The translations under genes were made by a program, and so were the position numbers. The notes under the pieces were generated by a model that saw only the letters and a list, made by a program, of their open reading frames with translations, was not told where the DNA came from and ran no database searches. Of a DNA stretch of 64,000 bases, positions 9,172-64,000 are shown one piece after another. Origin of the DNA: Erysipelotrichaceae bacterium (GTDB taxonomy: Bacteria; Bacillota_I; Bacilli_A; RFN20; DUOF01); assembly GCA_015058985.1 (NCBI GenBank), contig SVBH01000001.1, positions 1-64,000 of the forward strand, written 5' to 3'. Numbering within the stretch: the first letter of the stretch is position 1; every line of letters begins with the position of its first letter.

Positions 9172-9249
9172 TACTATCCTCCAATTTATTTAATTTTATT
9201 CTCAGGAATTAAAGAATATTCAGGTAATTATCTATTAGGAGGATTATAT

Positions 9250-10776
9250 ATGAAAAAAATATTTTGTTTTTTAGCTTTATCATTTGCTTTTATTTGTTTT
9301 TTTACCTTAAGCATTAATACTAAAGCAGCTAGTTGTACCATCAACAATGTAGAATATGAATTACCTAAAACCATAGGAATTAAAAATTATCATTCCATTA
9401 CTATTTATGATGCCTTACCAACTAACAATGAATTGCCATCATCATTTGATGAAGGAATAACACTTATCAATATTGAAAACGAATCAAGTTGCCAAAGCAT
9501 AGAAAATTACCAATATCAAATGACGACCACCTATAACAATAAGATGGGCAAAACCATTTATAATTATAAAAACATCATTTTAGATACTAATAATGATTTT
9601 GCTTGGTCATATTCTTATAATTGGCCCAAGTTTACTGCTACTCCAACTAGCTATGAGGTGAAATTTTCTGGTTCTATAACTAGTACAATAGATGTTATTT
9701 ATTATGCAAATGTAGGGCAATTAACTTCTCTCGATAAACTTCTCAGTTACATCAAAGCAAGTGAAGATGTTAAAAACTTAAATGCTATTAATGTTGAACC
9801 TATCAGTAATGAATATGAATCCTCATATAATCAATTAGGAAACTACTTAGTAACTTTTCGAGCAATAGATGCTAACAATAATATCTCTATACTTAATATG
9901 TGGGTAAATGTTGTAGATATCATCTCTCCTACAATCGATGGACCTACATCTTTAGAATCTAAAATGTCTTCACCTTTAACCATAGAAGAAATCACCTCTT
10001 TTTTAATCGTCTCGGACAATTATGACCAAAACGTCAACATTTCCTTATTGGTAGATTGTTTTACATTCAATGAGCAAAAAATAGGTTCTTTTGAAGTTCA
10101 ATTCATTTCCATAGATTCATCTGATAACCAAACGATACACACAATTACTATTACTACTATCGACGATGTTCCACCAATTATAAAAGGAGTAACCAAAATT
10201 ATCAAAGGTAGCAATTCCTCTATGGACACCAATTATGTAATTTCAAAATTGCAAATGATAGACAATATTGAAGGTAGTCAAAACAATTTAACTATCTTTG
10301 AAGATAATTATTCAAACAATGAAAATAAAGAAGGCATATACTATCTTTCTTTAATCGCAACAGACAGTCAAGGCAATTCATCGGAACCATATATCATCAA
10401 TATAGAAGTATACGACAGTGTTCCACCTATTTTCCATGTTGATGAAAACATTATTGTCACCGATACATCAAGATTAGTAACCAAAGAAGAAATATGGCAA
10501 TTATTTATTAAAACTAATCAACTAAAAGAAGAATCAATAGCAAATCTATCTTTAATCCAAGATACATATACAAACAATTACAAAAAAGCCGGAACTTACA
10601 GCATATCTTATTCTTTAGAAACTAACGAACAAATAAAAATCTTATCAGTAGATATTGAAGTTAATAAAAATCGTGATAAAAAAAGCAATAATATTTCTTT
10701 TTTCCTAGGGATTATTGCCTTGCTATCATCTATATTAATAATAAAAACACTAACAAAAAAACTTATAAAAATATAA
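9250..10776 (+). CDS. Chromosomal Ig-like (DUF5011-type) surface protein, homologue of the element-encoded adhesins
   Basis: About 508 residues. The N-terminal signal peptide ends near TKAAS. A first domain starts INNVEYELP, followed by about four Ig-like repeats with the spacing PTIDGP, DVPPIIKG, SVPPIFHV and strand endings of the DUF5011 type, then one C-terminal TM helix (about residues 478-500) with a basic tail. The whole order matches the proteins at 18617-20347 and 35043-36671: the same N-terminal INGFELELP motif, the same SPLTIEE/KNLTIDD start of repeat two, a KGS motif in repeat three and PPIF/APVF in repeat four. It sits alone, with no other element genes near. SD GGAGG 7 bases before the ATG fixes the start; the open frame extends upstream without support. 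Confidence 0.75.
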   Translation: MKKIFCFLALSFAFICFFTLSINTKAASCTINNVEYELPKTIGIKNYHSITIYDALPTNNELPSSFDEGITLINIENESSCQSIENYQYQMTTTYNNKMGKTIYNYKNIILDTNNDFAWSYSYNWPKFTATPTSYEVKFSGSITSTIDVIYYANVGQLTSLDKLLSYIKASEDVKNLNAINVEPISNEYESSYNQLGNYLVTFRAIDANNNISILNMWVNVVDIISPTIDGPTSLESKMSSPLTIEEITSFLIVSDNYDQNVNISLLVDCFTFNEQKIGSFEVQFISIDSSDNQTIHTITITTIDDVPPIIKGVTKIIKGSNSSMDTNYVISKLQMIDNIEGSQNNLTIFEDNYSNNENKEGIYYLSLIATDSQGNSSEPYIINIEVYDSVPPIFHVDENIIVTDTSRLVTKEEIWQLFIKTNQLKEESIANLSLIQDTYTNNYKKAGTYSISYSLETNEQIKILSVDIEVNKNRDKKSNNISFFLGIIALLSSILIIKTLTKKLIKI

Positions 10777-10802
10777 AAGATAGGAAACCCTATCTTTTTT
10801 TC
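10774..10802. terminator. Bidirectional terminator
   Basis: GATAGG/CCTATC stem with A-rich left and T7 right flanks, between convergent genes. Confidence 0.8.
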
Positions 10803-18616: not shown

Positions 18617-20347
18617 ATGTCTATAAATGAAAAAGATTTTAAAAAAGCTAAGAAAAAACATAAGTTTATGAAAGTTATGTCTTCTGTAGCTTTATTTGCA
18701 GGTATGACAGGAGCAGTAGTTCCTGCAGTAGCATTAACTAATAATGCTATTTCTATCCATGCGGAAGAACAGGCAAATAATCCGACAATCACGATAAATG
18801 GGTTTGAGTTGGAACTGCCATGCACAATTTATGTTGTTGATTATTATGAAGCTGTCTCACAAGAAGACGGATATATTACCGGACAACGATATTCTAATAT
18901 AAGAACTATTGAATTGGACAGTGCTGAAGATGTTGAATACATTCAGTCATTACGATATGTTTTAACAACAGACCAATTTGAAGATTATGACGATAATGAA
19001 AATTATGTGAAATTCGATAGTTATCAATATAGTAATCAAATATATACAGGGTATCATTCAGGTAACAAAGTTTATACAGGATTGATTACACCTCCTAAAA
19101 GTGGAAGTTATTATACTGCAGTATATGATGCAGGTGATAATTATGCTCCAGTGGTAGATGGTCAATTAACATATATAACATCACCATTTGCACCAGTGAC
19201 AATAGATACAATTATAGCTAATTTAAGAATTGTAGATAATGTGGATGGAGAAATATCTAATGAAAATATTGTTGTAGTTTCTAATGAATATACTGGTAAT
19301 GAGTCTGTACTAGGTGATTATACAATTGTATTAAATGTTACAGATACTGCTGGTAATACTGCTACATGTAATGTACTTATAATGGTTCAAGATTTAGAAG
19401 CACCGGCTATTACTGGTCCTATATCAGTTGATGCATATATATCAAAAAATTTAACTATAGATGATTTTAAGTCTTTATTATCTGTTTCTGATGATATAGA
19501 TGCATTAACTAAAGATGATATAGTTGTTAAAGAGGATAATTTTACAGCTAACAAAAATGTACCTGGTACATATAATGTGATTTTTTTCGCAACAGATACT
19601 GCAGGTAATGAAACTACTCATACGATGTCTGTAGTTGTAAAAGATGATATTAAACCTACTATTACTGGTACTGATGGATATACTAAGGGTTCTACTGATG
19701 TTCAAATGACATTAGATGGAATGTTGAATAATTTATCAGTAAACGATAATGTATCGATTCTAGATAAATCTAATTTAAATATTGTGTCTGATACATATTC
19801 TGGTAACGAAGGTAAAGTAGGAACATATAAAGTAGTTGTTAATATTACTGATGAGGCAGGAAATACATCAGACAATTTCACGATTACAATTGTGATCCTG
19901 GATGATGTGGCACCAGTATTCTGGGCTAACAACTCATTCTATGTACATGTAGATGGTGCAGTTGCATTATCTAATACACAATTAGCATACATAGCTCGTT
20001 CATTAGGCATTGTAGATAATACAAAAGATGCAAGTGTACAAATCATATCAAATGAATATGAGGGTAATGAAAGTACTAAAGGTGAATACATAGTATCTGT
20101 ACTTGCAGTCTATGAAGATGGAACACAAAATACAGGTTCATTCACACTATCAGTTGATAGCGACTTCAATGATGCAGTAATCATACCAGCAGATGAAGAA
20201 CCATTAAAATGGTATGAAAAAGCATGGAATGGAATTAAGTGGTTCTTTAGCTTCAAATGGCTAACAACTCCATTAAAATGGATATGGAATCATATTGTAG
20301 AACCAATATGGGAAGCACTTAAATGGTTAGGTAACAAATTGTTCTAA
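18617..20347 (+). CDS. Element 1 Ig-repeat surface protein (candidate adhesin)
   Basis: 576 residues. A basic N-terminus and signal peptide (to about residue 48, ending IHAEE), an N-terminal domain beginning INGFELELP, four or five DUF5011-type Ig repeats (starting at about residues 175, 260, 345 and 435), then a Trp-rich amphipathic C-terminus ending WLGNKLF, which could insert in membranes. Collinear with element 2's 35043-36671 and with the chromosomal 9250-10776. In filamentous phages the receptor-binding pIII has this place and layout, so I infer an adhesin. SD GAGGTAG. Confidence 0.7.
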   Translation: MSINEKDFKKAKKKHKFMKVMSSVALFAGMTGAVVPAVALTNNAISIHAEEQANNPTITINGFELELPCTIYVVDYYEAVSQEDGYITGQRYSNIRTIELDSAEDVEYIQSLRYVLTTDQFEDYDDNENYVKFDSYQYSNQIYTGYHSGNKVYTGLITPPKSGSYYTAVYDAGDNYAPVVDGQLTYITSPFAPVTIDTIIANLRIVDNVDGEISNENIVVVSNEYTGNESVLGDYTIVLNVTDTAGNTATCNVLIMVQDLEAPAITGPISVDAYISKNLTIDDFKSLLSVSDDIDALTKDDIVVKEDNFTANKNVPGTYNVIFFATDTAGNETTHTMSVVVKDDIKPTITGTDGYTKGSTDVQMTLDGMLNNLSVNDNVSILDKSNLNIVSDTYSGNEGKVGTYKVVVNITDEAGNTSDNFTITIVILDDVAPVFWANNSFYVHVDGAVALSNTQLAYIARSLGIVDNTKDASVQIISNEYEGNESTKGEYIVSVLAVYEDGTQNTGSFTLSVDSDFNDAVIIPADEEPLKWYEKAWNGIKWFFSFKWLTTPLKWIWNHIVEPIWEALKWLGNKLF

Positions 20348-33264: not shown

Positions 33265-34680
33265 TTATATCAATCCTCCAAGTATCTTTTCTAAAAATGC
33301 TAATAACATTTGCCATAACATTTCTAAAAATCTTAACAATTTATTTTTGTCAGAATTATATTCATTAGCTCTATCATTATCACTTAAATACTTACTATCT
33401 ACAGTTTTAAATACAGCAGAGCATTCTTTAGTTCTATCATCATTAAATGTAAATTCAACATCTACTTGTGCTCCTCTTTCAACTAATCCAGCTTTATATT
33501 GTGTACTGACATAATCATCATTATCTAATGAATAAATATATTCTTTAGAAGAAAAACCATTTATATAAGCAACAACATATGCTAAAGAATCAGGTTCTAA
33601 ATATGAATTGCTAAGCACTAAATTAGTGTTAGTAATAGCAATAGGTAAAATTAAATCATCCGTTACAATTACTTTTATCACTTTTTCTTCACTAACATTT
33701 CCAGATTTGTCTGTTGCTTTATAAGAAAATTCATATTCTCCTACTATAAGTTGTTTTTGCTGATAAGTATTATTTATTACTTGAACATCTATATTCTCAT
33801 AGGAATCAACATTATCTTTAATTCCTAAAAATGAATATAAAACTTCTGGAGATAATATAACAGTGTTAGAAACTAGTATTTCTTCAAAATTAGAATCAAA
33901 GGTAGGAGCTATATTATCTGTAACAGTAATTAGAATTTCTAAAACTTGAGTGTAAGTTGTTCCATCTACAATCATTTGAGCTGTAACAATTACTTTATGA
34001 AAACCTACTTCAGAATAATGACTAGAGTATTCATCTTCGTAGGTATAAGTAGCAGTATAATCAGGAACTAATGATTTTACCTCAACATTAGCTAAAATTT
34101 CTTCAACATCTATTTTATTAGTTGCTGTAGTTTCATATTTTGTTTGACCATCGATATATAAATAATCACTAGGGTCTTCAAAAATACATACAGTTGCCAC
34201 TGCAGAATAATTTTTTCCATCATAATTTAAAGTAGCTGTGAATTTATAAACACCATATTGGCCAAGAACCCAATTATCATCATTAGAAAATGTTAAATCA
34301 GATTCTTGATAATCATCATACATCCATAACATTTCATATTCAGATGTACCAGCACATGTATCAACAGAGGCTTCATAGAAATAAAAATCAGATTCTAACA
34401 TCCATATTAGATTTTCTAAATTAAAATCTTTTCTGTATGCTGTTTCAAAATCTTCTGGAATAATATAAAAATTAGAATGTTTAATTAGAGAGCCATCAGG
34501 TTCCCTAGGGTCAGTGAAACTAGCTTCTAAATATGTACTAGAACCACAAGAACCGCCTCCACCTAAATCAGAGTCAGGTAATACCATATATGCTTTAGAA
34601 GATTGACTATTTTTTAATGAAAAAGAAAATGAGGAAAACAACATAAATAACAGACAAATAAATTTTCCAAGTCTTTTCAT
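33265..34680 (-). CDS. Element 2 second Ig-like surface protein
   Basis: About 471 residues. A signal peptide (to about residue 30), a Cys-containing N-terminal domain, two or three Ig-like repeats (IAPTFDSN, YEFSYKATDKSGNVSEE), and an amphipathic/hydrophobic C-terminus. It has no counterpart in element 1, so element 2 has an expanded adhesin set. The start at 34680 follows GAGGTG; it overlaps the upstream gene's stop region. Confidence 0.58.
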   Translation of the reverse strand: MKRLGKFICLLFMLFSSFSFSLKNSQSSKAYMVLPDSDLGGGGSCGSSTYLEASFTDPREPDGSLIKHSNFYIIPEDFETAYRKDFNLENLIWMLESDFYFYEASVDTCAGTSEYEMLWMYDDYQESDLTFSNDDNWVLGQYGVYKFTATLNYDGKNYSAVATVCIFEDPSDYLYIDGQTKYETTATNKIDVEEILANVEVKSLVPDYTATYTYEDEYSSHYSEVGFHKVIVTAQMIVDGTTYTQVLEILITVTDNIAPTFDSNFEEILVSNTVILSPEVLYSFLGIKDNVDSYENIDVQVINNTYQQKQLIVGEYEFSYKATDKSGNVSEEKVIKVIVTDDLILPIAITNTNLVLSNSYLEPDSLAYVVAYINGFSSKEYIYSLDNDDYVSTQYKAGLVERGAQVDVEFTFNDDRTKECSAVFKTVDSKYLSDNDRANEYNSDKNKLLRFLEMLWQMLLAFLEKILGGLI

Positions 34681-34685
34681 TACAT

Positions 34686-35039
34686 TCACCTCAAATCCCT
34701 CATATAAAATTTGTGTTTGTTTTTAAGTCTAATTGAACAATTCAATGAAATATTTTTAATATCAACATTTTCTATTGTTCTCATATCAAATGCACTATAT
34801 CTAGGTAAATTTATATCTTCTCTTGCTATTGGAACTAAAAGTCCCTTTTCTAATTCATTAAATTTTTTTCTTATAAATTCCCCTTTAGAATCTTTTAAAG
34901 ATACTATTGTATATACTGAGCATTTATCATCTTTTATATTTTTAATAAAAACATAGTGTCCTCCAGGCTTATTTTCTAAACCTGGAAGATTTATGTTTAA
35001 TGCATAACCAATTTTTCCAATTAAATTATTTTTTTTCAA
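34686..35039 (-). CDS. Element 2 hypothetical protein (117 aa)
   Basis: 117 residues, no signal or TM. A beta-rich run (GGHYVFIKNI, CSVYTIVSLKD, GLLVPIARED) has the feel of a PemK/MazF-like SH3 barrel, but the catalytic pattern is not clear, so I leave it unnamed. It sits between the two Ig-protein genes. It starts 3 bases after the stop of the upstream adhesin. Confidence 0.45.
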   Translation of the reverse strand: MKKNNLIGKIGYALNINLPGLENKPGGHYVFIKNIKDDKCSVYTIVSLKDSKGEFIRKKFNELEKGLLVPIAREDINLPRYSAFDMRTIENVDIKNISLNCSIRLKNKHKFYMRDLR

Positions 35040-35042
35040 TTA

Positions 35043-36671
35043 TTAGAACAATTTATTCCATACCCATTTTACTGCAGTCCATAGTTTTAAAACTATATCC
35101 CACAAGAACAAAGCAATACTTTCAACTATGTTGAATACAAAGACAACTAAATCTACTAACCATTCAAAAGTAATAACATATAGGAATCCATCTACAAACT
35201 TATCCCATCCGCTTTTTTTGACTGGTTTTTCTTCTCCTTGAATGATAACAGTACCTAAAGTTTCACTTACTGCAAATGTTACTACACCTGTAGTTGATTC
35301 TCCATTTGCATAAGTTCCTCTTAAATAAACTTGATATTCACCCTCTACAGTTTCATTTCCTACATAATCATTTTGAAGAATATCAATTTCTACTGTTCTT
35401 GTTTTGTCAAACATTCCTAATTCTCGAGCTACATAAGCAATATTTTGTTCAGTTAATAATGTTGTAGGCTTCACAACTACATAAAATTCTCCATTTGCCC
35501 AAAATACAGGTGGAATTTCATCGCTAACTGTTACTGTAATTGTATAGTCATCAGAAACATTATTTGAACCATCCGTTACATTAACTACAATTTTATATGA
35601 ACCAGGCTTATTAGCATTACCAGTTAACTCATCAGAAACAATATATACATCATCTGTTGTTACAGTGTAATAGTTATCTGAATAAGTTAATTCTGATAAT
35701 ATTGAGTCAATAGTTAATGTAACATTGTAAGCTTTAGTCCATTCATTTATACCTGAAATGGTAGGTTTAATATCATCAATAACAGAAACAACAGTAGTCT
35801 TAGTTGTTTCGTTTCCAGAACTATCAGTTGCCTTAACAACAACTTCGTATTGTCCAGGAACACCTTTATTAGAAGTATAATTGTCAGTAACTAGAACAGC
35901 TGTTAAACCAACATCTGCATTATCAGTAACAGTGAATAGTAACAAGAGTTCTTCAATATTTAAATCAGAAGATAAATATCTAGATACTGTAGCTGGACCA
36001 TTTATAATTGGATCAGTAGTATCTACTCTAATTACATTAATTGTTACTTGACTTGAATTTCCACTTCTATCAGTTGCACTGAAAACAATAGTACATGTTC
36101 CTAACTTTTTCTCAGTACAATTATTTTCAACTAATTCTTTTTCTACTTCTCCATCAACTTCATCTATTGCAGTTAAATTAGATTTTAATTCATCAATATC
36201 TAATTCTTCATCATAATTGATTGTATATGATAATTGACCATCAATAACAGGAGCATAAATATCCAATATTACATTCAATGTTACCGTCTTTGTAACATCT
36301 TCATAAGAAACTGAATAATTATTGTCTGATGTTTCACTAATAACTAAAGAATCAGAAGACATCGTATGAGTTGATGAACTTAAATTGCCTGTAGCTAAGC
36401 AAGTAGTAGAAGTATAAGAAAGTTCAAAATTTTCTCGAATAACAGCAATTCTTTCTTCTTCTGTAAGTTGAGAAGAAACATCAATCGTTGATGGACCACT
36501 TATACTATAAACGGTAGAATTCATTGAAGAATCACATTCTAATCCTCCAGGTAAGTCAATATATGCTTTTACATCACTTGCATTACTGCTTGAAAAAGCA
36601 GTTGCTCCTGCTGTGAAAATTGAACCTAAAATAAGAAGACTAGATAATATAAATTTCGATATTTTTTTCAT
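35043..36671 (-). CDS. Element 2 Ig-repeat surface protein (candidate adhesin)
   Basis: 542 residues. Signal peptide (to about residue 35), N-terminal domain, then four Ig repeats beginning APVIDGQL, DPIINGPA, IKPTISGI and IPPVFWAN, and a Trp-rich amphipathic end finishing VWNKLF. Collinear with 18617-20347 (APVVDGQL, APAITGPI, IKPTITGT, VAPVFWAN, ...GNKLF) and with chromosomal 9250-10776. Conserved repeats but divergent N-terminal domain fit a receptor-binding protein under diversifying pressure. Confidence 0.7.
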   Translation of the reverse strand: MKKISKFILSSLLILGSIFTAGATAFSSSNASDVKAYIDLPGGLECDSSMNSTVYSISGPSTIDVSSQLTEEERIAVIRENFELSYTSTTCLATGNLSSSTHTMSSDSLVISETSDNNYSVSYEDVTKTVTLNVILDIYAPVIDGQLSYTINYDEELDIDELKSNLTAIDEVDGEVEKELVENNCTEKKLGTCTIVFSATDRSGNSSQVTINVIRVDTTDPIINGPATVSRYLSSDLNIEELLLLFTVTDNADVGLTAVLVTDNYTSNKGVPGQYEVVVKATDSSGNETTKTTVVSVIDDIKPTISGINEWTKAYNVTLTIDSILSELTYSDNYYTVTTDDVYIVSDELTGNANKPGSYKIVVNVTDGSNNVSDDYTITVTVSDEIPPVFWANGEFYVVVKPTTLLTEQNIAYVARELGMFDKTRTVEIDILQNDYVGNETVEGEYQVYLRGTYANGESTTGVVTFAVSETLGTVIIQGEEKPVKKSGWDKFVDGFLYVITFEWLVDLVVFVFNIVESIALFLWDIVLKLWTAVKWVWNKLF

Positions 36672-57348: not shown

Positions 57349-58837
57349 ACATCTTATATGCTTTAAATTACATTACTCTCAAACATAGGAAGAGATAGTA
57401 ACAATAACAACGCAGGTACTTTATATGCTTTAAATTACATTACTCTCAAACTACGCTCATCTATTCCCATCAGAAACTCAAGTACTTTATATGCTTTAAA
57501 TTACATTACTCTCAAACATCCTTTGCTGCTAGATATAATCTCATAATGTACTTTATATGCTTTAAATTACATTACTCTCAAACATAAATCTACCCAATTC
57601 CACTTACATAAAAGTACTTTATATGCTTTAAATTACATTACTCTCAAACCTTCATCATCTATTTGTCTGACATATTTTGGTACTTTATATGCTTTAAATT
57701 ACATTACTCTCAAACTTTAATCGAATTTTTCATACCGTTTTTAATGTACTTTATATGCTTTAAATTACATTACTCTCAAACTGACCAATTCCTCTAAAAG
57801 CAAGACTGTTTGTACTTTATATGCTTTAAATTACATTACTCTCAAACTCTGTTCTGATAATATTTTTTATTTTTCTTGTACTTTATATGCTTTAAATTAC
57901 ATTACTCTCAAACGGCCTTCTTCATATTATCCACATATTATCCGTACTTTATATGCTTTAAATTACATTACTCTCAAACATAGTGAGGATGATTGGGTTA
58001 TAAATTTAAGTACTTTATATGCTTTAAATTACATTACTCTCAAACTAGACGATGTTATTTTTAGTTTCTTGAAATGTACTTTATATGCTTTAAATTACAT
58101 TACTCTCAAACACTAGTTATTTAAACTACTTAATGTTATTAGTACTTTATATGCTTTAAATTACATTACTCTCAAACCCAGGAGAGCCAGGTATACAAGG
58201 ACCACAAGTACTTTATATGCTTTAAATTACATTACTCTCAAACAACATAGTATTTTTAATCAATAATAGTTTAGTACTTTATATGCTTTAAATTACATTA
58301 CTCTCAAACCAATAAATTATATATGCTTTTTTTTGTTGCGTACTTTATATGCTTTAAATTACATTACTCTCAAACACTATTAGTACGGAAAGTACCATCA
58401 AGCGAGTACTTTATATGCTTTAAATTACATTACTCTCAAACTATCTATTATAAGTATATATCAAAAAGAAAGTACTTTATATGCTTTAAATTACATTACT
58501 CTCAAACATATGGGCCAATATTACAAAAGTATATTTTGTACTTTATATGCTTTAAATTACATTACTCTCAAACATAACACCTAAGACAACAAACATTGCT
58601 GTAGTACTTTATATGCTTTAAATTACATTACTCTCAAACCCTATTTTTTCAAATTGCAATAGGGAAAAAGTACTTTATATGCTTTAAATTACATTACTCT
58701 CAAACATTAGAGGTAGAAAGGGGGAAGAAAGACAAGTACTTTATATGCTTTAAATTACATTACTCTCAAACTACTGGGATGACACCAACGAATGGTTAAT
58801 TGTACTTTATATGCTTTAAATTACATTACTCTCAAAC
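57349..58837 (-). CRISPR. Type II-A CRISPR array, 23 repeats and 22 spacers
   Basis: 36-bp repeats (minus strand starts GTTTGAGAGTAATG and ends AAAGTAC) with a 66-bp period and 30-nt spacers; the one next to the left-most repeat is 31 nt. All repeats are identical by eye except 57349-57384, which differs at about four of its terminal bases (3' end in transcript orientation). A degenerate repeat marks the leader-distal end, so transcription runs right to left, away from csn2. Confidence 0.97.
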
Positions 58838-58914
58838 CTCAAATAGAGTAAAAAATTCAAGAATATACAGCTTACGACCTATAAAATAAAGCATATATAT
58901 GATACATGTTTATG
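58838..58914 (-). promoter_or_regulatory. CRISPR leader with ATTTGAG anchoring motif
   Basis: 77 bp between csn2 and the first repeat. On the minus strand its last seven bases read ATTTGAG, matching the leader-anchoring sequence known in streptococcal type II-A systems for spacer integration. Confidence 0.75.
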
Positions 58915-59574
58915 TTAACATATTTGGCATAAATCTTCATCTATTATTATAGTTTTATCTACATCAAAAGGTTTATGATGACCAGAAATATTAAATAAAC
59001 AAATATTCATGTATTCCAAATCTTTTCTTATTAGTTTGTATTCCTCTGATGTAATAAAATCAAACAGATTCAATACAAATAATATTTTTATTTCATTGTT
59101 TATCTTTATATTTTTAACATAATTGATAAAATCTTCTACAAAAGATTCTTTATTATATGAACACTTCAATGACGTCATGTTAAAAATATCACTAAAAGAA
59201 ATATTAGTGTTATATTCTAATTTCATATCATAGGATAGAGAAATTTTATCTAGCATTGTAATAATATTAGAGTTTATATTTGCAAGTATAATTTTTTCCT
59301 CATCACCTAAATAATAATTTTCAATGTTTTTATATGTAGCAGTTAAAGATTTTTTTGTATTTAAATTTAAATCGAATATATCCGTGATAAAAAATGACTC
59401 CTTACCCACATCCAACAATTTGTCTTGATATAAAATGATTTCATCATTATTAGCTTCTTTTATATAATTTATCAGTTTATATAAATATTTAGGATTTTCA
59501 AAAACAAGATTATATACAATTCCTGCTTCAATCCTAAAAACGTAATCTATCCTTTTAATTTTTAAAGTTTTCAC
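58915..59574 (-). CDS. csn2: Csn2, type II-A adaptation protein
   Basis: 219 residues. The N-terminus YVFRIEAGIVYNLVFENPKY and the C-terminal ILFVLNLFDFITSEEY, then FDVDKTIIIDEDLCQIC are typical of Csn2. It forms a DNA-encircling tetramer that binds free ends during spacer acquisition. It overlaps cas2 by 4 bases, last gene of the cas operon and next to the leader. Identifies the system as subtype II-A. Confidence 0.87.
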   Translation of the reverse strand: MKTLKIKRIDYVFRIEAGIVYNLVFENPKYLYKLINYIKEANNDEIILYQDKLLDVGKESFFITDIFDLNLNTKKSLTATYKNIENYYLGDEEKIILANINSNIITMLDKISLSYDMKLEYNTNISFSDIFNMTSLKCSYNKESFVEDFINYVKNIKINNEIKILFVLNLFDFITSEEYKLIRKDLEYMNICLFNISGHHKPFDVDKTIIIDEDLCQIC

Positions 59575-59891
59575 AATTCAGTAATCCTTTCATCAGTATT
59601 TAAAACGTCCGTATAATGTTCGCCTACCACAAAATTCATCTCTGAAAATTGTTTTTCAGTAACAGTAAGTATGGCTACGCTTCCTTCACTAGGAGCAATT
59701 TTTTCAACTGATGTTTCTATAGACGATGCCATCCGAGAATCAGAACATAACTTTAAATATACGGATTCTTGCAACATATAGAAACCCAATTTCTTTATAT
59801 CTTTAACAAACTTAGCATAACTCTTTCTTTGTGATACTTTTTCAACGGGCAAATCAAAAAATAATATTAATCTCATATATCTATAACTCAT
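59571..59891 (-). CDS. cas2: Cas2
   Basis: 106 residues from MSYRYMRLILFFDLPV (conserved first strand with the Asp). It ends TEKQFSEMNF. With Cas1 it forms the integrase complex. The start at 59891 overlaps the cas1 end; a start at MRLI (59876) is the alternative. Confidence 0.9.
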   Translation of the reverse strand: MSYRYMRLILFFDLPVEKVSQRKSYAKFVKDIKKLGFYMLQESVYLKLCSDSRMASSIETSVEKIAPSEGSVAILTVTEKQFSEMNFVVGEHYTDVLNTDERITEL

Positions 59892-60744
59892 AATCAATAA
59901 ATTCAATTGATCCTTTTCCATTCTTTAATACATTTAAAACATTTTGAACATATAATTTTATAGCATTTTCTAAATACATTTCTTGATTTTTAAACTTAAC
60001 CTTATCATTTAACATATATGATAGCTGTTTCTTAAAATTATCATCATCTAATTTACCATTTATAACATACAAATCAACATAAGGTCTAAGAGGTTCTATT
60101 AAATCACAAGAAAGATTAAATGAATTAATTTCACCAATGTGATGTATGCCAACTTCAGTTAAGTAACCATAGCACTTTATTTCTCTATTAATTGCGCTTA
60201 ATACAATTGAGTATCCATAATCTAAATATGTGTTAATTAAACAATCTTTATTTCTAGAAAACTCATTTCCAAATAAAGCATTAAAATACACTTTAGCAGC
60301 ATGCCCCTCTCTGTTAGTTGCATCTCCATTTACAACTTCTTTACTGTAATCTAAAAGCTTATTAAAATTGCTATTATTAATTTTCATTAGATTCCTAGCT
60401 TGATTTATAATTTTTCTAACTATTAAATCTTTCCAAATTTCATCTTTTAATAACTCATTCCATTTAGTTTGACTCATTATTTTTCTATATGAATCATTTG
60501 TCCCATATATGGGTAATAATTGAGATTGAGGGTTATGTTTGCCATCACAAAACACAACCCTTATATTCTTTTCAGACAAAGCAGAAAGCAACGCTGTAGT
60601 AATAGATACCTCAGTAGAATGTATAACTAGAGATGAAATTTCATCTAATAGAATCCTTGTTTCAGTTTCACTTCTACATACAAGATAATTTAATGAATAT
60701 TCAAGCTTACATCTATTTCTAATAATAACAGTTCTGAATGCCAT
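59881..60744 (-). CDS. cas1: Cas1 integrase
   Basis: 287 residues: MAFRTVIIRNRCKLEYSLN, NREGHAAKVYF (catalytic Glu), EVGIHHIGE (catalytic His) and CDLIEPLRPYVD (Asp), all typical of type II-A Cas1. Inserts new spacers at the leader-proximal repeat. The start overlaps the cas9 stop (TAATG). Confidence 0.95.
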   Translation of the reverse strand: MAFRTVIIRNRCKLEYSLNYLVCRSETETRILLDEISSLVIHSTEVSITTALLSALSEKNIRVVFCDGKHNPQSQLLPIYGTNDSYRKIMSQTKWNELLKDEIWKDLIVRKIINQARNLMKINNSNFNKLLDYSKEVVNGDATNREGHAAKVYFNALFGNEFSRNKDCLINTYLDYGYSIVLSAINREIKCYGYLTEVGIHHIGEINSFNLSCDLIEPLRPYVDLYVINGKLDDDNFKKQLSYMLNDKVKFKNQEMYLENAIKLYVQNVLNVLKNGKGSIEFIDYEL

Positions 60745-63700
60745 TATTGATTACTCCATATAACCTTAGTGTAATAACCTGTAATTGATTCGGAAATAAT
60801 AGAAATAGGTGATGATATTTTTTTACTCATAGACAATACACCTGCTTGTCCAGCTCCATTAATTAATCTTAAATCTGAACTTTCTCTATCGCATTTTGTC
60901 AATTTTAGCAATTGATTCAATACGAAGCACAGATCGTATAAAGATAATGAGTCAATTTTTTCTTTTATATCATTTGATTTCAACAAATTTCCTTGATTTG
61001 CTAAATTAGAAATTCCTTGATAAATACTAGAATTCAATTTTTCCTTTATTGCAGTAAATAATTCATAACATTCTTTTTTTGTAATTATGACAGCCTTATT
61101 ATTTTTTCTTGCTGGAGAAATTACATATTCTTCGCATTCATCATCTATTTTGTCCTTAGAAATTGCAAGTAATTTTGAAAGTTTTCTAATTATTAATAAT
61201 TGATTGTAGTTCCAATTTGCTTCATAAACATTTTTTAATACATATTTATTACCAGTTTTTCCTGTTATAGCAAACTTACTTCCATTAGACTTGATAATAG
61301 TATTAATTTTTAATTCATCTACCAAAATTTTCGGTTCTATTAATTCTAATCCTGTTATTAAATAATTCAATTTCTTTTTAAGATTTGAATTATACATCGT
61401 AGGAATCGCTTCAATGGTTACTTGCTTATTACCCTTTTTATCTAATGATTCTACTAATGTATAGGAGCCAAAGGCAAGATCAGAGTATCCACCATATTTA
61501 CTAGCAACTAATCCCTGTTTCTTTTCTAATAAATTCCCATCCTTATATTCACTAGCCTTCTTTAATGAAACTTTAGAAAACAATTCCGTTCCTCTATATG
61601 CTCTAGTAGTTACCATAATATCAAACTTATTAATAATCTGATTTTTAGTTTTCTTTAGGGACTCATCGTTACAATAATTCCAAACCACATTATTATCCTT
61701 ATCTAGTATAGGTTTCTTATCAAAACCATCACCATTATCAAATATTTTAGTTATATTAGTGGTTCTTTTCTTAGTTTCATCTCCAGAAACTAAATTTTCT
61801 TGAATCCATTCACTTATTTTACCTTCAATATACATATTTTTTTGACCATCTTTCGTTGTATAATCAAAATATGTATGTCCCATCCTACCCACAACAACAT
61901 TCAAATAAGCATCATGAGCATGGTGATAATTATTAGCATCCCTACATTTTAAAATATCGTATTTATTTCTAAAATCTGAAATATTTTCTGCCTTAGATAA
62001 AACAACAAGTGGATTGATGTTATACTTACTAGCATGGTAATTGTAAATTAGATCTTTAAGAGCTTTGATACTTTGGTTTGTGTATACTAGTTGTCTGTTA
62101 ACAAAACTCATTAATTCTTCATTTGTTATAGGATCTTTTCTGATTAATCTATCCATTTTTTCTTCACTAATAAATTTCAATTGATGTAATTGCTTAATAA
62201 AATGTCTTTGATTAAAACTATTACTTAATTGGGTAAATGGCACAGGATATATATCGCTTTTAACTCTATTGGCTTCATTAAGTACAAGTACTTTATTATC
62301 CATGCTGTCATCTTTAATCAAACATTGAGGAATGATATGGTCAATATCGTATTTATCAGATATCATAACTTCTTCCAAATCTAATGGTTTTCCAGTATAT
62401 AAACATTTTCCTAATTGAGTAAAATATAAAAACACTCTATCACTATTAAAACAAGTAGGATCATTTTTGAATTTAGTATCTAATTGTTTTCTCAATTCGC
62501 TAGAAACAAATTCTTTAGCATTGTCATACAAATTTTTTATTTTTTTATATCTCGAATCAGTTCTTTTCTTTTCAGCTTTATTTGTTCTAGGAGTCTCAAT
62601 ATAAAACTCGTCAATATGTGTTCCTATAATTTTTTCTAATTCCTCTATAATTTTATACGCTTGAATAAGTGGTCTTTTCATACCAGGAGAAACATATAGA
62701 TTATTTACATAGGTCTTTAAATCCTGATTGTACAACTCAGGGCAATGTCTTTCATTATATAAATCAATGGCAACTCCAAATCCCAATTCTGTTTTATTTA
62801 AAGCTTCCATTAAATTGTCATTTGTATCATGTAAATGAGACAATAAAGAACATGACATTATTTCCCCATTATTATCTACTCCTTGTAATAATAGTAAGTT
62901 TTTAGACAACCTACCATATTTTTTATATGTGAATCCTTTTATATTTTTTCTAATCTTTTCATCTTTTATGCCATATACATTATACAATCTTTGATCTAGT
63001 ACTTTTTTATCCTCAAATATAACAATATCTTTAATAATATTTTCAATTATATCAATATTATTTTTAATATAATCCAACCCATATATTGAAGAAAAATCTA
63101 CGAGGGATGCTAAAGATGCATTAAGTTCTTCCAATTGTTTACCAGAAGAAGTAGTGATATCTACGTCTTCACCAAATTTAGATTTAAACCATGCTAACAA
63201 ATCTTTTTTAGTAACTTTCCTTTTCTTTAAATATAAATCTTTTAGTAAAGCATCTTTTACTTCTACAGTTATAAAGGAACCATTAATTCTAATCTTATTA
63301 AGTTCTTGCAAAACACAGTAATATGAGAAATAAATGGAATTTTTAGGTAAACAATAACAATCATCACCTCGTAAATATTCACATTTGCTTTGCATCCTTT
63401 GAATGAATTCTTTAGCTGTCTCATCTTTATTCACAATCTTATCAATATTCCAAGGTTTGATCTTTTCATTACTATTTCTTTTAACCCATGCAAATTTGCT
63501 GGAACTGTATAAAGGCCCAACATAATATGGAATCTTATATTTTAGTATAGAAATAATTTTATCTTTAACACTACCATATTCATCTACTAAATTTAAGAAG
63601 TTATAAAATTTAGATTGTGTATCTAAAATTGTTCTCATCTCTATTTCATTAAGTTGATGAGGAAATACTCCGTTATCAGCGGAATTCAACCTAGGGAGAT

Positions 63701-64000
63701 ATTCATAACTAGACATTTTATCAAATATTTCCTTTAAATATCCATCTGACTTGTCATTTATATTCAAAGTATTTTTTAAAAACTTATAAAAATCGTCTTG
63801 TTTACAATGTTCTACTCTTATACCTTTGCCATCAGTTCTATTAGATCCTACATAATGAACATAATTGCTAGGATTTTTATCACTAGCATCTCTAAAGATC
63901 GCAAAATATTTATCCTTTGCATTTTCCTTAACATATGACTTTAACAATTTGAGCTCTTCTTTATGTCTTTCATATCTATTTACCATAGCAAGCGATAAAT
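60744..64000 (-). CDS. cas9: Cas9, N-terminus beyond the window
   Basis: At least 1,085 residues visible; the frame is open to the edge, and LSLAMVNRYERHKEELKLLK aligns with an internal part of streptococcal Cas9 near residue 320. So RuvC-I, the bridge helix and part of REC lie outside; the full protein should be about 1,400 residues. Visible: RuvC-II FYIETPR, HNH YDIDHIIPQ (catalytic His), RuvC-III HHAHDAYLN, and the PAM-interacting domain ending SESITGYYTKVIW. All catalytic residues inside the window are present. It is RNA-guided DNA endonuclease. Its tracrRNA was not found and may lie upstream of cas9. Confidence 0.95.
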   Translation of the reverse strand, partial: LSLAMVNRYERHKEELKLLKSYVKENAKDKYFAIFRDASDKNPSNYVHYVGSNRTDGKGIRVEHCKQDDFYKFLKNTLNINDKSDGYLKEIFDKMSSYEYLPRLNSADNGVFPHQLNEIEMRTILDTQSKFYNFLNLVDEYGSVKDKIISILKYKIPYYVGPLYSSSKFAWVKRNSNEKIKPWNIDKIVNKDETAKEFIQRMQSKCEYLRGDDCYCLPKNSIYFSYYCVLQELNKIRINGSFITVEVKDALLKDLYLKKRKVTKKDLLAWFKSKFGEDVDITTSSGKQLEELNASLASLVDFSSIYGLDYIKNNIDIIENIIKDIVIFEDKKVLDQRLYNVYGIKDEKIRKNIKGFTYKKYGRLSKNLLLLQGVDNNGEIMSCSLLSHLHDTNDNLMEALNKTELGFGVAIDLYNERHCPELYNQDLKTYVNNLYVSPGMKRPLIQAYKIIEELEKIIGTHIDEFYIETPRTNKAEKKRTDSRYKKIKNLYDNAKEFVSSELRKQLDTKFKNDPTCFNSDRVFLYFTQLGKCLYTGKPLDLEEVMISDKYDIDHIIPQCLIKDDSMDNKVLVLNEANRVKSDIYPVPFTQLSNSFNQRHFIKQLHQLKFISEEKMDRLIRKDPITNEELMSFVNRQLVYTNQSIKALKDLIYNYHASKYNINPLVVLSKAENISDFRNKYDILKCRDANNYHHAHDAYLNVVVGRMGHTYFDYTTKDGQKNMYIEGKISEWIQENLVSGDETKKRTTNITKIFDNGDGFDKKPILDKDNNVVWNYCNDESLKKTKNQIINKFDIMVTTRAYRGTELFSKVSLKKASEYKDGNLLEKKQGLVASKYGGYSDLAFGSYTLVESLDKKGNKQVTIEAIPTMYNSNLKKKLNYLITGLELIEPKILVDELKINTIIKSNGSKFAITGKTGNKYVLKNVYEANWNYNQLLIIRKLSKLLAISKDKIDDECEEYVISPARKNNKAVIITKKECYELFTAIKEKLNSSIYQGISNLANQGNLLKSNDIKEKIDSLSLYDLCFVLNQLLKLTKCDRESSDLRLINGAGQAGVLSMSKKISSPISIISESITGYYTKVIWSNQ

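Follow-up and report, generated by a model that had tools for sequence, protein, structure and literature searches.

The Ig-repeat gene and its surroundings

Within the window, the whole 64,000-nt stretch of DNA analyzed here, positions 9250–10776 of the forward strand carry an intact ORF of 508 codons that encodes a chromosomal Ig-repeat surface protein, denoted HOSTIG. Its neighbors are cellular, namely a divergent Ca-ATPase gene and a convergent patatin gene, and no genes of the two resident elements (E1 and E2) adjoin it. The ATG at 9250 is preceded, 7 nt upstream, by the Shine-Dalgarno sequence AGGAGG (9237–9242, +), and an alternative start at ATG 9160 would run into the start of the divergent Ca-ATPase gene. 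Downstream, a bidirectional terminator-like hairpin (10775–10798) is common to HOSTIG and the patatin gene. With its own Shine-Dalgarno sequence, a terminator-like hairpin and an intact ORF, HOSTIG is thus a stand-alone, intact gene. Base composition gives no sign of a foreign gene, the GC fraction of HOSTIG (0.283) being close to that of the window (0.278).

The encoded protein (508 aa) begins with a likely signal peptide, MKKIFCFLALSFAFICFFTLSINTKAAS (9250–9333, +), which was identified by inspection of the sequence alone, without a predictor. Next comes a poorly conserved N-terminal domain that opens with CTINNVEYELPKTI (9334–9699, +), followed by Ig-like domains 1 (9700–9918, +), 2 (9919–10164, +), 3 (10165–10416, +) and 4 (10417–10665, +); they were delimited by alignment, domain comparison and the AlphaFold model. 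The second of these is the best conserved relative to the element proteins, and the fourth, which is divergent and membrane-proximal, is typical of the family. The protein ends in a C-terminal transmembrane helix, FFLGIIALLSSILIIKTL (10699–10752, +), called from hydropathy and a predicted helix, and then basic residues.

The AlphaFold model, computed from a five-sequence alignment, has a mean pLDDT of 68 and is confident over most of Ig domains 1–4 (about 90 in Ig2), but not over the N-terminal domain or the tail. Foldseek searches with this model retrieved strings of cadherin-like domains, mostly cadherin ectodomains, and bacterial adhesin domains at low overall similarity (TM below 0.3). Such matches are consistent with an adhesin stalk, but are generic rather than specific.

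At its far end (58300–63986) the window carries a Cas9-like gene (1080 aa) whose neighbors are ordered as in a type II CRISPR locus; an 84-aa ORF there (58323–58577) yields on translation a recurring motif, YFICFKLHYSQT, of the kind that a repeat array would give.

Homology to the Ig proteins of elements E1 and E2

Elements E1 and E2 are putatively viral and are so called because of Rep_trans, a putative Zot-like gene and their gene order. The name Zot-like was given on the strength of a Walker motif and gene position, the putative ATPase being recognized by neither Pfam nor PHROGs. Each element encodes a homologue of HOSTIG, identified by blastp and tail analysis: that of E1 (18617–20347, +) has a W-rich amphipathic tail, and that of E2 (35043–36671, −) a hydrophobic W-rich tail. 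Near its main Ig protein, E2 encodes another Ig-like protein of weaker similarity (474 aa; 33265–34689, −; blastp against HOSTIG, 9e-9).

The first-pass annotation of this DNA had regarded HOSTIG as a stand-alone host homologue of both element proteins, and blastp bears this out at levels well beyond chance, the E1 protein aligning at 26% identity over 544 aa (E = 4e-36) and the E2 protein at 29% over 304 aa (E = 1e-32); the two element proteins are 40% identical to each other over 416 aa. Within the window's own genome the element proteins score 105 and 100 bits against HOSTIG, whereas giant surface proteins with Ig repeats of the generic type reach 25 bits at most. Another protein of this genome, L273:6942-8606 (G000:C8; 554 aa), contains Ig-like domains and is hydrophobic near its C-terminus, but its N-terminal part is unrelated.

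The same annotation described the three proteins as collinear domain by domain, with the same repeat order and the same N-terminal motif. When HOSTIG was compared domain by domain with shuffled controls, Ig2 and Ig3 were found to lie on the diagonal, with z-scores of 15.2 and 12.1 against E1 and of 15.0 and 11.3 against E2, but Ig1 was ambiguous and Ig4 was weak against the elements (z = 4.1 and 5.0), although strong against chromosomal relatives (z = 8–12). The likeness of the N-terminal motif (TINNVEYELP/TINGFELELP) is marginal for E1 (z = 3.4) and absent for E2 (z = 1.6), and the same pattern is present in L056 and L057, chromosomal proteins of another bacterial family. Nor did the true transmembrane anchor credited to HOSTIG survive as a distinction. 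The C-terminal segment is indeed hydrophobic (Kyte-Doolittle mean over 19 residues peaking at 2.22) and a helix is predicted at residues 483–507, where pLDDT is low, but the E2 protein (2.32), many provirus proteins and further chromosomal members likewise end in a hydrophobic segment. Because chromosomal and viral members alike include some with membrane-helix tails and some with amphipathic W/F-rich ones, the anchor is no mark of a host protein, and this comparison of tails across the family ruled it out as a host/virus discriminator.

Beyond the window, comparison of the Ig proteins with PHROGs yielded nothing more than weak matches, and scans of viral contigs with the E1 protein or HOSTIG as a single query detected no relative. 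An alignment of the Rep proteins matched seven viral contigs, in none of which an Ig homologue was found by blastp against the window proteins. A genome scan with alignment A3 returned two family relatives and two distant matches.

Chromosomal relatives and their genomic context

Genomes, loci and bacterial families are denoted here by G, L and f numbers, f1 being the family of the window, and the assemblies are mostly from uncultured organisms; G003, for example, represents uncultured Bacilli (CALVUJ01), and G011 represents UBA1709. Relatives of HOSTIG were detected in 29 of 58 genomes of the order (a count that includes provirus copies), and a profile search gave matches in 93 of 394 genomes of the class, stand-alone and provirus copies being counted alike. 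Most are ORFs of ∼530–650 aa, with a few longer (to about 800 aa) or short (<300 aa), and they are built alike: a signal-like N-terminus is followed by several Ig domains, of which the last is the same divergent one, and a short tail ends the protein. Intact chromosomal relatives exist in other genera. The window's family is represented by four genomes, each of which has a chromosomal copy; the elements' Rep is confined to the window's own genome among these four and is absent from the other three.

In several families the gene occupies a conserved position, with strong local synteny in f3, f16 and f23. Nine f3 genomes have a class-II tRNA synthetase gene and its neighbor upstream of it, and four of the nine have HSP90 on the opposite flank; in f2 it lies beside ECF-like transporter genes (named from ABC matches and position); a block of at least 10 genes is common to three f16 genomes, and the downstream genes are common to eight genomes of f23. 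The closest relative of HOSTIG, L055 in G003, adjoins a gene named by sequence as enolase, and the two loci show little sign of synteny, having patatin alone in common within three genes. Short versions (about 285–340 aa) occur in five f3 genomes (L087 and L088; G047:C16, G012:C4 and G026:C21), and that of L088 has the location common in f3, next to the tRNA synthetase gene.

Phylogenetic position

Three trees were examined: an order tree of 33 proteins and a class tree of 75, both midpoint-rooted, and a third tree of 80 rows that includes the envelope protein of plasmavirus L2 (see below) and generic Ig repeats as an outgroup. The first-pass annotation had asked for a phylogeny that would reveal whether the chromosomal copy nests inside viral ones, and HOSTIG was nested inside viral proteins in none of the three trees; it groups instead with chromosomal proteins of its own family. 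In the order tree it is placed with the chromosomal L055, L058 and L075 (support 94/89) and the E1 and E2 proteins with chromosomal proteins of f2 and f1 (L056, L057 and L074; 89/90), all nine being held together at 98/97. In the class tree its sister is L055, from a genome of the same family (98/94), and the E1 and E2 proteins are placed elsewhere. With the outgroup, the f1 chromosomal quartet is retained (93/93), but the pair formed by HOSTIG and L055 falls to 91/64; here the E1 and E2 proteins join chromosomal proteins of f19 (98/81), and the L2 protein joins provirus proteins (95/95). Chromosomal and viral members together form one group apart from the generic Ig repeats (95/97), so that the outcome named at the outset as contrary, a branching among generic DUF5011 proteins, did not occur.

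Across the family, viral proteins make up several separate groups among chromosomal ones, most of which track bacterial families. In AU tests on the order tree, a single clade of all viral proteins gave p = 0.044. A clade of HOSTIG, E1 and E2 was not rejected (p = 0.096 for the order tree, p = 0.307 for the class tree), so the deep branching order is poorly resolved; HOSTIG is a long branch, and the neighbors of E1 and E2 differ between trees.

Plasmavirus L2 and provirus loci

Plasmaviruses are enveloped, budding viruses that infect wall-less Acholeplasma, and their entry is thought to proceed by membrane fusion. A tblastn search against phage records gave a match (2e-9) to the envelope protein (ORF13) of plasmavirus L2, with which HOSTIG shares 25% identity over 333 aa (E = 5e-19) and the E2 protein aligns at E = 2e-25. 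The viral module ORF13-ORF1-ORF3-integrase was not found around HOSTIG, and no window protein beside it matches L2 proteins. Alignment with hhalign of the Zot-like ATPase family and L2 ORF3 covered just 29 columns around the Walker A motif, for which homology is not claimed, and the element proteins E1_d333 and E2_d386 gave no usable alignment with L2 ORF1.

The L2 gene order is seen in several provirus loci of other families, in the form Ig/ORF13, ORF1-like, small gene, ORF3-like ATPase, ORF4-position gene and integrase, with blastp matches to L2 ORF1, ORF3 and integrase. Three loci of class genomes (L214, L218 and L221) combine an L2-like Ig gene, a gene in the ORF1 position and an integrase gene with Rep and Zot-like genes of the E1/E2 type and apparently bridge plasmaviruses and Rep-bearing elements; in L211 and L213 a Zot-like gene lies two genes past the Ig gene. 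Much of the L2 order is also retained in L212, L215, L216, L217, L219, L220, L222 and L223 (f16 and f21), with blastp matches to ORF1, ORF3, integrase or the envelope protein. Pairs of Ig genes within one element were observed at L070:6653-10756 and L076:7145-10602; the members of the L070 pair are identical in their last 37 residues and different in their N-terminal parts, as if one anchor carried exchangeable heads.

The plasmavirus envelope protein has cellular homologues across the class, as well as homologues in Rep-bearing elements. The membership of L2 ORF13 and the provirus loci in this family was unexpected, and it contrasts with the ICTV statement of 2018 that plasmaviruses have only the integrase in common with other viruses (PMC12662186).

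Origin and possible role of HOSTIG

We consider it probable that HOSTIG is the window's copy of an old chromosomal surface-protein family of small-genome Bacilli, members of which are carried by viruses as envelope or attachment proteins, and that it was not taken from the resident elements, transfer from host to virus being the likelier direction. In this scheme the signal peptide would export the protein and the C-terminal helix would hold it in the membrane with the remainder outside, where the stalk of four Ig domains may present the variable N-terminal domain as in an adhesin or surface-contact protein. Plasmavirus L2, the viruses related to it and elements with Rep, E1 and E2 among them, would use family members as envelope or attachment proteins, acquired from hosts long ago and more than once. 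HOSTIG is probably not a gene captured from E1 or E2, because each of the four genomes of the family carries a stand-alone homologue, three of these genomes being without Rep, and because class-wide relatives lie in conserved neighborhoods beside housekeeping genes. What emerges is probably an ancient cell-surface Ig family that was exchanged with viruses and donated to them. The distribution of the cellular family suggests where viral envelope proteins had their source, which upholds in part the proposal that HOSTIG is the source of the viral adhesin; nothing singles out this gene as the direct donor of the E1 and E2 proteins, and the deep direction of transfer is unproven. For a virus surface protein, the family is a concrete candidate source and possibly also supplies the receptor side.

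A viral Ig protein might bind the cell's Ig protein like-to-like, the spike being an acquired host self-adhesion protein. Of 25 order genomes with element genes, 7 have elements that bear an Ig gene; a cellular Ig gene accompanies these in 6 of the 7, and it is present in 3 of the remaining 18 genomes (Fisher p = 0.003, with element classes assigned by hand). The families f4 and f8, whose elements lack an Ig gene, also lack a chromosomal one; the predominance of cadherin ectodomains in the fold search points the same way. This association is confounded by bacterial phylogeny, however, most double negatives being from one family, and G019 has an Ig-bearing element, yet no cellular copy was found in it; moreover, the partners are low in identity and the cadherin similarity is generic, so that we regard homophilic binding as unlikely. 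A broader form of the idea, in which plasmaviruses and the Rep-bearing elements of small-genome Bacilli use former cellular adhesion proteins, taken from hosts more than once, for their envelope or for attachment and enter by binding the host's chromosomal member, with HOSTIG as such a partner, seems to us equally doubtful.

Capture may also have run the other way: cells deep in the class would have domesticated an envelope protein of viral origin, from which the whole family would descend by vertical inheritance. The family root is not resolved and some virus proteins lie near the base of the midpoint-rooted trees, but with generic cellular Ig repeats as the outgroup no viral group is basal with support, and the scatter of viral proteins in separate groups, with chromosomal ones mostly following bacterial families, makes such a history improbable.

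A further reading, suggested by the first-pass annotation, is a captured viral gene kept for exclusion, in which a displayed attachment protein of viral type would occupy the receptor and block related viruses. The principle is documented for Ff phages, where resident pIII saturates TolA and thereby confers immunity to superinfection (PMC7070036). HOSTIG has the layout expected of such a protein (a signal peptide, Ig domains on the outside and an anchor at the C-terminus), and its genome carries two elements with homologues. By analogy, exclusion of this kind is possibly feasible in mechanical terms, but the distribution lends it no support: HOSTIG lies outside viral clades in all trees, genomes of the same family that lack the elements' Rep have the gene too, conserved chromosomal loci hold it across the class, and HOSTIG is only 24–29% identical to the E1 and E2 proteins, with little likeness in the N-terminal domain, the part expected to bind a receptor. 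We think it an improbable role. That HOSTIG is a relic of a decayed third element, as the distance of about 6 kb between it and the beginning of E1 might suggest, is scarcely credible given an intact ORF with a Shine-Dalgarno sequence and its own terminator, no further element genes around it, and intact chromosomal relatives in other genera.

Comparison with known systems

The pIII protein of filamentous phages, with its signal peptide, outside domains and C-terminal anchor, resembles HOSTIG in layout alone, no sequence relation being seen. The Ig-like repeat type of HOSTIG is that of PF16403 (Bact_surface_Ig-like), which we take to be DUF5011, and of LapB_rpt_80 (NF033932), although the matches are weak. 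These models describe single repeats, whereas HOSTIG is a short protein in which the membrane-proximal domain and the tail are fixed; it scores 23.3 bits against PF16403, below the Pfam gathering cut-off of 27, which is exceeded by its relatives L231 (40.2) and L249 (41.6). The Ig proteins of E1 and E2 are like HOSTIG in family membership and in the order of Ig2 and Ig3, but differ from it in sequence (24–29% identity), in their diverged Ig4 and N-terminal domains and in their W-rich tails, and they are not its nearest neighbors in the trees. ORF13 of Acholeplasma virus L2 (Plasmaviridae; NC_001447) shares with HOSTIG a homologous Ig-like region, and both proteins have a signal peptide, a variable N-terminal part, Ig-like domains, a C-terminal hydrophobic helix and a basic end. 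The L2 protein is longer (738 aa), with a far longer N-terminal part, and its gene sits in a viral module, whereas HOSTIG stands alone among cellular genes.
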